NCBI GenBank assembly: GCA_030447385.1
Contig: JAUJOY010000002.1
Span: 308,224-372,223 of the forward strand
Source of the DNA: Mycobacteriales bacterium
Lineage (GTDB): Bacteria; Actinomycetota; Actinomycetes; Mycobacteriales; SCTD01
Direction: 5' to 3'
Length of the DNA: 64,000 nucleotides
The notes under the pieces are model-generated. The model saw nothing but the letters and a program-made list of their open reading frames with translations, did no database searches and was not told the DNA's origin. Numbering within the stretch: position 1 is the stretch's first letter; every line of letters begins with the position of its first letter. Both the position numbers and the translations under genes were made by a program. Of this stretch, positions 46,815-51,386 are shown piece after piece.

Positions 46815-48199
46815 GCGACGAGCTCGGCCGGGTCCACTTCGTCGGCATCGGCGGCGCGGGCATGAGCGGCATCGCCCGGGTGCTCCTGGCGCGCGGCAGC
46901 GCCGTCTCCGGCAGTGACGCCAAGGACTCGCGCACCATCGCCGCGCTGCGGGCCCTCGGTGCGCAGATCTCCCTCGGGCACGACGCGGCCTCGGTCGAGG
47001 GCGCGGACACCGTCGTGGTGTCCACCGCGATCCGGCCGGACAACCCGGAGCTGGTCGCGGCCCGCAGCACCGGCCTGCCGGTCCTGCTGCGGGCCGAGGC
47101 CCTGGCCGCCCTGCTGCGCGGGCGTCGTGGGGTGGCCGTCGCGGGCACCCACGGCAAGACCACGACCACCTCGATGCTCACCGTCGCGATCCAGCACTGC
47201 GGCGTGGACCCCTCCTTCGCGATCGGCGGCGACCTCAACGAGGCCGGGAGCAACGCCCACCACGGCAGCGGGCAGCTGTTCATCGTCGAGGCCGACGAGA
47301 GCGACGGCTCGTTCCTGGCCTATCGGCCGCACGCCGCGCTCGTGACCAACGTGGAGGCCGAGCACCTCGACCACTACGGCGACGCGGAGTCGGTGCACCG
47401 GGCGTTCGAGCAGTTCGTGGGGACGGTCCAGCCCGCGGGGTTCGTCGTGCTGTGCGCCGACGACCCCGGCACGCGCCGGCTCGCGGGCACCGCCCGCTCG
47501 GCGGGCCTCGACGTGCGCACGTACGGCCTTGCGGCGGACGCCGACCTGCGGATCGACGGGCTGGCCGTCAGCGGCACGACGAGCCGCTACCAGCCGGTCC
47601 TGCGCGGTCGCCGGCTGCCCGCGGTCGCGCTGGCCGTACCCGGGGCGCACCTGGCGCTGAACTCCGCCGGGGCGCTGCTCATGGGCATCGGCCTCGGGCT
47701 CGAGCCGGGCACCCTCGTCAGCGGGCTCGCCGGCTTCAGCGGGGTCCGGCGCCGCATGGAGCTCAAGGGCACCATAGGAGGCATCCGGGTGTACGACGAC
47801 TACGCCCACCACCCCACCGAGGTGCGCGCCCAGCTGGTCGCGGCCCGCGAGGTCGTCGGCACGGGGCGGCTGGTCGTCGCCTTCCAGCCGCACCGCTACA
47901 GCCGCACCCTGGTGTTCGGCGACGAGCTGGGGCAGGCGCTCGGCCTGGCCGACGAGGTGGTGGTGATGGAGGTCTACGCCGCGGGGGAGGACCCGATCCC
48001 GGGCGCCACGGGCGCCACGGTCGCCGCGGCGGTGCCGCTGCCCGGCGACTCGGTCGTGTTCGAGCCGTCCTGGACGGCCGTGCCGGGACGACTCGCCGGG
48101 CGCGCGCAGCCCGGTGACCTCGTGCTCACCCTGGGGGCAGGGGACATCACCGCGGTCGGGCCGGAGGTCCTGCGACTGCTGGCGGGGGAGGCGCCGTGA
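46811..48199 (+). CDS. murC: UDP-MurNAc:L-Ala ligase
   Basis: [59 protein letters not shown]. Confidence 0.94.
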
Positions 48200-48243
48200 G
48201 CCGGGTCCGCGGTCGCCCGCCCCGCCCGAGGCGGCGCAGGTGA
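48196..48243 (+). CDS. Micro-ORF (15 aa, Arg-rich) linking murC and ftsQ
   Basis: GTG AGC CGG GTC CGC GGT CGC CCG CCC CGC CCG AGG CGG CGC AGG TGA; GTGA overlap with murC stop and with ftsQ start. Confidence 0.4.
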   Translation: MSRVRGRPPRPRRRR

Positions 48244-49010
48244 CGGCGCCGAGCGCCGGCCAGCGGCCCGCGCGGGTGCTCCCGGCTGAGCCCCGGCTCG
48301 CGGAGCGGGCCCGCGCGCAGCGCAGCACCCGGCGCCGCTGGTTCCTCCGGCGCTGCGCCGAGGCGCTGGTGGTGCTGCTGCCGCTGGTGGCGCTGGCGTG
48401 GGTGCTGCTGGTCTCGACCTGGGTGATCGTCGACCGTGTCGAGGTCGTGGGCACCGGCCGGCTGACCGTCGAGGAGGTGACCGCCGTCGCCGCCGTGGCC
48501 CCAGGGACACCGCTCGCGCGGGTGGACCTCGACCGCGTGGCGGGCGCGGTGAGCCGCCTGCCCGCCGTGGCCGACGTGCAGGCGCACCGGTCCTGGCCCG
48601 GCACCCTGCGCCTGAACGTCACCGAGCGCTCGCCCGTGGCCGGGGTCCCCTCCGCCGGCGGCGTCACGCTGGTGGACCGGGAGGGCGTGCCGTTCGCGTC
48701 GGCGCCGGTGCTGCCCGACGGGGCGTTCCGGCTGGAGGTCGCGCAGGTCGGACCGCAGGATCCGGCGACGCTCGCCGCGCTGCAGGTCTCGCGCGAGCTC
48801 CCGGCGACCCTGAGGGCACAGGTGCAGGCCCTGCAGGCGGCGTCGCCCTCGTCGGTGGTCCTGCTGCTGGCGGGCGGACGACAGGTGGTGTGGGGCCCGC
48901 CAGGGGACGCGGCGGCGAAGGCCGCAGCGGTCGAGGCGCTGCTGAAGCTGCCGGGACGGGTCGTCGACGTGAGCGCTCCCGGCGTCGCGGTGCGCAGGGA
49001 CAGCCCGTGA
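48240..49010 (+). CDS. ftsQ: Cell division protein FtsQ (POTRA)
   Basis: TM segment then [67 protein letters not shown]. Confidence 0.9.
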   Translation: MTAPSAGQRPARVLPAEPRLAERARAQRSTRRRWFLRRCAEALVVLLPLVALAWVLLVSTWVIVDRVEVVGTGRLTVEEVTAVAAVAPGTPLARVDLDRVAGAVSRLPAVADVQAHRSWPGTLRLNVTERSPVAGVPSAGGVTLVDREGVPFASAPVLPDGAFRLEVAQVGPQDPATLAALQVSRELPATLRAQVQALQAASPSSVVLLLAGGRQVVWGPPGDAAAKAAAVEALLKLPGRVVDVSAPGVAVRRDSP

Positions 49011-49089
49011 CCCGGCTCGCTGAACCCGCAACGGGTAGCCGCAGCCGGCTCTGGGCAGACTCGGGAAGACCCGCCTAGGAGGTCTCGCC

Positions 49090-50049
49090 CTGTCCACGCC
49101 GATCCCGCTGCCGACGCCGACGCCGTCGCCGTACAGGGAGCCTGCCAGGGCCGCACGGGTGACCATGGACGCCTTCGTCACGAGCTCGGACGTGTTCGAG
49201 AGCTTCTTCACCAGTGCCCGCATCGGCCTGGCCCTCGCCGACCTGTCCGGCCGCTTCCTGCGCGTCAACGACAGCTACGCCGACCTGCTCGGCCGGCCGA
49301 GCGAGGACCTCGTCGGCGTCGCGCTGCGCGAGGTCCTGCGGGGGACCGACGGGAAGCCGCTGGACCTCGCGCCGCTGCTGGACGGGACGCGGTCGTGGCT
49401 GCAGTCCGAGCAGGAACACGTGCGCCCTGACCGCGCGGTCGTGTGGGTGCTCCACGGCATCGCGCCCGTGGCAGGTCCGGACGGCGCACCGGGCTGGTAC
49501 GCCCTCAGCGCCCAGGACATCACCGAGCGGCGGCAGGCCGAGCAGAACCTGCGGGACCTGCACGTCGTGCTCAGCGAGCAGGCGGTCCGCGACCCGCTGA
49601 CGGGGCTGGCCAACCGGGCCCTGCTGGCGGAGCGCCTCACCGCCTCCCTGGCCCGCGACACCCGTAGCGGCGAGTCGACCGGCGTGCTCTTCCTCGACCT
49701 CGACGGGTTCAAGGAGGTCAACGACCGCTTCGGCCACGCGGTGGGTGACGCGGTCCTGCGGGCGGTCGCCGACCGGCTGCGGCGGGCCGTCCGGCCCTCC
49801 GACACCGTCGCCCGGCTGGGGGGCGACGAGTTCGTGGTCGTGGTGGAGGGCGCCTCACCCGCAGCCGTGGACGCGCTGGCCCGGAGGCTGACGGGCGCGG
49901 TCGCCGCGCCACTGACCGTGCAGGGGACAACCCTCAACATCGGGGTGAGCGTTGGGGTTGCGCTGGCGGAGTCCGGCCGAGCAGAGGCCTCCGCGCTGCT
50001 CTCCCAGGCCGACTCGCGCATGTACGACGCGAAGCGCCACGCGCGCTAG
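49090..50049 (+). CDS. PAS-GGDEF diguanylate cyclase
   Basis: PAS-like SARIGLALADLSGRFLRVNDSYADLLGRP; GGDEF domain DPLTGLANRALLAERL, VLFLDLDGFKEVNDRFGHAVGD, RPSDTVARLGGDEFVVV. Start taken as CTG at 49090, 7 nt after AGGAGG (49077-49082); alternatives GTG 49159 or ATG 49165. Confidence 0.9.
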   Translation: MSTPIPLPTPTPSPYREPARAARVTMDAFVTSSDVFESFFTSARIGLALADLSGRFLRVNDSYADLLGRPSEDLVGVALREVLRGTDGKPLDLAPLLDGTRSWLQSEQEHVRPDRAVVWVLHGIAPVAGPDGAPGWYALSAQDITERRQAEQNLRDLHVVLSEQAVRDPLTGLANRALLAERLTASLARDTRSGESTGVLFLDLDGFKEVNDRFGHAVGDAVLRAVADRLRRAVRPSDTVARLGGDEFVVVVEGASPAAVDALARRLTGAVAAPLTVQGTTLNIGVSVGVALAESGRAEASALLSQADSRMYDAKRHAR

Positions 50050-50140
50050 CGCGCCGCGCGGCAACTTGGTGACGCGACACGCCGCGGCGTAGTTGACCGC
50101 CGCAACAGCCTCCCCGTACCGTCCCGGCCCAGGCAGCAGG

Positions 50141-50170
50141 TTGACATAACTCTCAGCCTCCGGTTGAGGT
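50141..50170 (+). promoter_or_regulatory. Putative ftsZ promoter/leader element (TTGACATAACTCTCAGCCTCCGGTTGAGGT)
   Basis: TTGACA at 50141-50146 followed by CCTC-CGGTT-GAGG inverted repeat in the 209-bp gap before ftsZ. Confidence 0.45.
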
Positions 50171-50258
50171 CGAGCCTTCCGGAGGCCCCTCCCAGAGCCT
50201 GTTCCTGCCGGCTGCCCGTCTTCTTCTTCCGCCCCCGTACGAGAGGCATCCATCCATC

Positions 50259-51386
50259 GTGGCAGCTCCGCAGAACTACCTCGCGGTCATCAAGGTGGTC
50301 GGCATCGGCGGTGGCGGCGTCAACGCCGTCAACCGGATGATCGAGGTCGGCCTCAAGGGCGTCGAGTTCATCGCCATCAACACCGATGCCCAGGCGCTGC
50401 TCATGAGCGACGCGGACGTCAAGCTCGACATCGGCCGTGAGCTGACGCGCGGCCTGGGCGCGGGGGCTCAGCCCGACGTCGGCCGGCAGGCGGCCCAGGA
50501 CCACCAGGAGGAGATCGAGGAGGTCCTCAAGGGGGCCGACATGGTCTTCGTCACCGCGGGCGAGGGTGGCGGCACGGGCACGGGCGGTGCGCCCGTCGTC
50601 GCCAGCGTGGCGAGGGGACTCGGCGCGCTCACCATCGGCGTGGTCACCCGGCCGTTCTCCTTCGAGGGGCGCCGTCGGGCGCAGCAGGCCGAGGAGGGGA
50701 TCGACGCCCTCCGCGCCGAGGTGGACACCCTCATCATCATCCCGAACGACCGGCTGCTGTCCATCAGCGACCGCTCGGTCAGCGTCATGGACGCCTTCAA
50801 GAGCGCCGACCAGGTCCTGCTCTCGGGCGTCCAGGGCATCACCGACCTCATCACGACCCCGGGCCTGATCAACCTCGACTTCGCCGACGTCAAAGCCGTC
50901 ATGAGCGGGGCCGGCAGCGCCCTCATGGGGATCGGCAACGCCCGCGGGGACGACCGGGCCGCCGTCGCCGCCGAGATGGCCATCGCGAGCCCGCTGCTCG
51001 AAGCCAGCATGGACGGTGCCCACGGGGTCCTGCTCAACATCTCCGGGGGAAGCGACCTCGGCCTTTTCGAGATCAACGAGGCAGCGCAGCTGGTGGCGGA
51101 CGCCGCGCACCCCGAGGCCAACATCATCTTCGGTGCCGTCATCGACGACGCGCTCGGCGACGAGGTGCGCGTCACGGTGATCGCTGCCGGCTTCGACGCC
51201 GGCGCACCCACGCCGGTGCGGCGGGTCGAGACCCGCCGTCAGCCCGAGCCGGCGCCGGAGCCGGTCCCGACGGCCAAGCCGGCGCCGCCCTTCGCCCAGC
51301 AGCGCCCCCGGCCGATCGCACCGCAGCCCACCCGCCGCACCGTCGTCTTCGAGGACGACCTCGACGTGCCCGACTTCCTGAAGTAG
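50259..51386 (+). CDS. ftsZ: Cell division GTPase FtsZ
   Basis: [44 protein letters not shown]-terminal [13 protein letters not shown] start. Confidence 0.97.

Follow-up and report, generated by a model that had tools for sequence, protein, structure and literature searches.

The stretch of DNA analysed here (64,000 nucleotides of a Mycobacteriales bacterium contig, hereafter the window) raises the question of why a diguanylate cyclase gene should lie between ftsQ and ftsZ, and whether its output is tied to cell division. A single gene, on the same strand as its neighbours, was found between the ftsQ stop codon at 49010 and the ftsZ start codon at 50259, and its Pfam domains (PAS_4, then GGDEF) together with the flanking ftsQ and ftsZ confirmed that this is a PAS-GGDEF gene, as the initial annotation had it; chance is excluded because 20 relatives have the gene in synteny. 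The features referred to below are as follows.

48114 to 49010, plus strand: ftsQ, upstream neighbour (Pfam POTRA_1 and FtsQ_DivIB_C)
49077 to 49082, plus strand: Shine-Dalgarno sequence AGGAGG, read directly, with 7 nt between it and the CTG of the cyclase gene
49090 to 50049, plus strand: PAS-GGDEF diguanylate cyclase gene, coding for 319 aa when read from the inferred CTG, with GTG 49159 as an alternative start
49210 to 49536, plus strand: PAS domain (Pfam PAS_4, E 2e-12; residues 18-126 of the GTG frame)
49582 to 50043, plus strand: GGDEF domain (Pfam GGDEF, E 2.4e-45; AlphaFold model)
49792 to 49803, plus strand: RPSD, primary inhibitory site (RxxD), its R, P and D being the same in all 21 orthologues
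49819 to 49833, plus strand: GGDEF active-site loop, invariant in 21 orthologues
50076 to 50122, plus strand: putative ftsZ promoter, with GACAC (50076), a -35-like TTGACC (50093) and a -10-like TACCGT (50117), the arrangement being kept in the family and more loosely in the order
50141 to 50172, plus strand: FtsR-type box TTGACATAACTCTCAGCCTCCGGTTGAGGTCG upstream of ftsZ, conserved order-wide and resembling the published FtsR site (PMC6683498)
50259 to 51386, plus strand: ftsZ, downstream neighbour (Pfam Tubulin and FtsZ_C)

The gene had previously been taken to begin at 49077, which is actually the first base of the perfect AGGAGG Shine-Dalgarno sequence and lies outside the coding frame. 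The CTG at 49090 is the likely start, because a segment common to the orthologues (ERAxxARxTMxAL) precedes the mechanically assigned GTG at 49159, and that GTG is unlikely to be the true start as its use would remove the conserved segment. Upstream of the cyclase, rsmH, ftsI, murE, murF, mraY, murD, ftsW, murG and murC were confirmed with Pfam, and downstream of ftsZ there are (again by Pfam) an Ala_racemase_N (YggS-like) gene, sepF and a DivIVA gene, so that the canonical dcw order described for the locus stood for rsmH, for ftsI to murC and for ftsQ, but mraZ and ftsL received no confirmation among the window ORFs scanned. The dcw cluster of the window is otherwise an ordinary actinobacterial one. 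A PADLOC search returned nothing.

A survey of the ftsQ-ftsZ interval across relatives, as had been proposed with the initial annotation, was carried out on 24 genomes of the host family from 7 genera, the window's own genome being counted, and it found the cyclase to be kept family-wide: exactly one orthologue per genome was present in 21 of the 24, in all 7 genera and at 56-70% identity. In every one of these 21 carriers it adjoins ftsQ and/or ftsZ (where one neighbour only is seen, the contig ends there), which is the fixed position through a lineage by which a dcw gene may be recognised. A lone recent insertion was rejected on these grounds. Where no orthologue was counted, one genome (G019, locus L118) carries a relic of approximately 56 C-terminal codons with a premature TAG between ftsQ and ftsZ, its sister G020 having the gene intact; in another (G013) ftsZ sits at a contig edge, and in a third (G006) ftsZ itself was not found. 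The cyclase tree and the tree of FtsZ plus FtsQ recovered the same genera and had 8 of 17 splits in common, compared to 0.2 with shuffled labels, and although the deeper branches of both are weakly supported, this agreement supports vertical inheritance, short of proving every branch. Pairwise dN/dS of the cyclase is approximately 0.15-0.4, close to that of ftsQ, and by this measure the 21 copies are under purifying selection, as ftsQ is.

The gap between ftsQ and the cyclase is short in most family genomes, and in G002 the sole plausible cyclase start overlaps the ftsQ stop codon as GTGA. No terminator-like site was found around the cyclase gene in a consensus scan, and it is likely from this arrangement that the cyclase is usually co-transcribed with ftsQ. 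Two genomes (G012 at L123 and G014 at L113) have an antisense frame of at least 470 aa between ftsQ and the cyclase, of which the L113 copy matches Peptidase_M20 and the one at L123 was taken by eye to be of the same kind, and therefore the cyclase there must be independent of ftsQ read-through and must have a promoter of its own. The closest relative of G014 (G015) is without this antisense gene.

Transcription of ftsZ may be a separate matter. The consensus scan for promoters and terminators around the cyclase gene was empty, and conservation served instead to recognise the ftsZ promoter. Upstream of ftsZ, the element TTGACATAACTCTCAGCCTCCGGTTGAGG at 50141 recurs in each of the order's 15 families and in most genomes sampled, and the FtsR-type box pattern TTGACATAACTnTAA...TTGAGGGTGAGGGT is very strongly conserved across these 15 families (window and L126-L165); an FtsR site has been published for both C. 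glutamicum and M. tuberculosis (PMC6683498). As this promoter module is order-wide, it is older than the cyclase, which was inserted upstream of it, and ftsZ can be transcribed without relying on the cyclase. The GACAC at 50076-50080, ahead of the -35-like hexamer, is present in most family members and in several other families and is the motif of WhiA (PMC3781837), but five bases are too few for WhiA control to be claimed.

The GGDEF, FLDLD and ND..GH motifs, which cover the active-site loop and the residues for metal and GTP binding, are invariant in all 21 orthologues, and each of these proteins has RP[SAG]D (RxxD; RPSD in the window) five residues before GGDEF, which bears out the earlier view that active site and inhibitory site are both intact and suggests that the cyclase is catalytically competent and product-inhibited. 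An AlphaFold model (mean pLDDT 83, pTM 0.50) consists of PAS, a linking helix and GGDEF, with the domain folds confident and their mutual arrangement not, and it matches PAS-GGDEF-EAL and LOV-cyclase structures. A helix N-terminal to the PAS domain is conserved among the orthologues.

Outside the family the arrangement was not met with. When 395 genomes of the class were searched with an orthologue profile, the window gene scored 503 bits and the best non-family sequence 268 bits, which marks out a distinct orthologous group; none of the 29 non-family profile matches for which DNA was fetched is near ftsQ or ftsZ. In a contig scan, the relatives among the matches listed are at most 52% identical, over part of the protein, and none of the 80 loci among the matches listed has ftsQ or ftsZ alongside. 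In 80 ftsZ regions drawn from 46 further families of the class, mostly with one or two samples per family, no GGDEF frame was found upstream of ftsZ (4 of these regions extend barely or not at all upstream of the gene), so the impression that a cyclase before ftsZ is unusual held up. No account of a GGDEF gene between ftsQ and ftsZ was found in a search of open-access papers that covered few subscription journals. One assembly (G104) contains two FtsZ genes (L132 and L133), the L132 copy being 53% identical to the window FtsZ.

A possible effector is present in the family. All 10 members tested have a BldD, with 75-81% identity to that of Streptomyces coelicolor, and the RGD-X8-RQED c-di-GMP motif is in all five copies read. 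In Streptomyces c-di-GMP drives BldD binding and ftsZ is in the BldD regulon (PMC4151990). The BldD box TNAC(N)5GTNA is absent from the gap between cyclase and ftsZ in the window, and across 21 genomes one exact copy was found in this gap, compared to 0.37 expected by shuffling; one-mismatch sites occur at approximately twice expectation, most of the recurring ones inside the FtsR box. With no conserved BldD box in the gap, a direct loop from BldD to ftsZ is unsupported by sequence.

The reading that we prefer, to which we give roughly even odds (about 0.5), is that of a family-ancestral, product-inhibited cyclase, the supply from which follows dcw expression and acts partly via BldD. The comparison shows a single acquisition by the family ancestor, at a point after the ftsQ stop codon and ahead of the older ftsZ promoter. 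In most members the cyclase gene probably ends the upstream dcw transcript, such that the capacity for c-di-GMP synthesis would follow the expression of cell-wall and division genes. A signal at the PAS domain may gate synthesis while the RxxD site would cap output, and BldD would be expected to mediate at least part of the action of the c-di-GMP made. Since ftsZ has an FtsR-type promoter to itself, the cyclase would influence division, if at all, by way of its product and not by operon polarity.

The same position could also have been taken up by a general-purpose active cyclase parked in a permissive slot, its signalling unrelated to division, and we regard this as possible, if held to tentatively. 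The ftsQ-ftsZ slot does carry unrelated genes in other families: in f3 a similar-sized insert is present in 4 of 4 genomes (L137-L140; ftsQ-ftsZ gap approximately 1.45-1.5 kb), consisting in L137 and L139 of nitroreductase-like and carboxymuconolactone-decarboxylase (CMD)-like genes (Pfam on L137 only), and further occupants of the slot are genes for a TauE exporter (f4, antisense), a sodium:solute symporter (f46) and an alpha/beta hydrolase (f18), none with an obvious division role, which weakens the argument from position. Decay of the cyclase in G019 and the separate promoter of ftsZ point the same way. The host genome has ten GGDEF matches in approximately nine proteins, mostly GGDEF-EAL hybrids, and of its stand-alone cyclases L004, which is not near ftsZ, is kept nearly as widely as the window gene (19 of 24 genomes compared to 21). 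Against a parked gene, only 5 of 24 genomes keep L006, the third of the stand-alone cyclases, and the window gene holds an identical position in 21 of 21 carriers over approximately 40% protein divergence; it stands out in being fixed through 21 genomes and 7 genera, whereas the adjacent M20 gene is patchy within one genus. A GGDEF-EAL gene outside the window (G000:C9:527300-530030) is spread over several frames, through either a pseudogene or assembly errors.

Closer couplings to division seem less probable. That the cyclase has become a true dcw component in this family, its c-di-GMP rising with ftsQ expression and directly controlling constriction or the assembly of the Z ring as a checkpoint inside the dcw cluster, is unlikely, and it is slightly less likely still that the cyclase feeds a BldD which represses ftsZ and developmental genes, so that dcw expression damps its own last step: the BldD copies with their c-di-GMP motif and the Streptomyces regulon are as this would require, but the lack of a conserved box between cyclase and ftsZ is not. 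Least probable of all, to our minds, is a division regulator of the YfiN/DgcN type that binds FtsZ, FtsQ or SepF at the septum and acts by local c-di-GMP or a block to constriction. It has a precedent in E. coli YfiN, which localises to the Z ring and halts division (PMC4992967), and the helix conserved ahead of the PAS domain could be the sort of element involved; YfiN, though, sits in the inner membrane under repression by periplasmic YfiR and lacks I-sites (PMC10127611), while the cyclase has RxxD and no HAMP or membrane domain among its Pfam matches. On the YfiN/DgcN equivalog model (NCBIfam NF007423) it reached 178 bits against a cut-off of 325, through its GGDEF part only, and control GGDEF proteins reached 107-179 bits, so the match is generic and membership of that group was rejected. 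The claim that a place before ftsZ implies an output tied to division was consequently not supported as stated, given the intervening promoter module, the unrelated genes in the slot elsewhere, the decayed copy in G019 and the want of a conserved BldD box linking cyclase to ftsZ. For the reading of a supply that follows dcw expression, a division-specific output is plausible and a direct division function of the cyclase possible.

The observation is stronger than it was from the window sequence alone, and the comparative data lend the proposed mechanism partial support. Family-wide retention makes a link between c-di-GMP and division testable without proving one, and a dcw-fixed cyclase with a natural loss (G019 compared to the intact G020) offers a clean comparative and genetic test of their coordination. 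The ftsQ-ftsZ boundary also appears to be a place where actinobacteria gain genes with the ftsZ promoter left undisturbed. To our knowledge, where c-di-GMP has been linked to division, as through YfiN in E. coli, the cyclases involved are encoded outside the division gene cluster.

Compared to E. coli YfiN/DgcN, then, the window gene is likewise a diguanylate cyclase connected with FtsZ, with generic GGDEF similarity, but it differs in its RxxD site and PAS-GGDEF architecture. With stand-alone PAS-GGDEF cyclases (PAS_4 plus GGDEF) it shares domain order, fold, catalytic motif and RxxD, and it differs from them in being fixed between ftsQ and ftsZ and in forming its own orthologous group. CdgB and the other Streptomyces cyclases supplying BldD are also actinobacterial GGDEF enzymes found alongside a conserved BldD, and are described as developmental regulators and BldD targets; unlike these, the window gene lies in the dcw cluster and has no BldD box beside it in the window. 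Finally, the region upstream of ftsZ in the window has the same type of box as the FtsR-controlled ftsZ promoter of C. glutamicum (FtsR) and M. tuberculosis (Rv1828), but here a cyclase gene stands directly upstream of the module.
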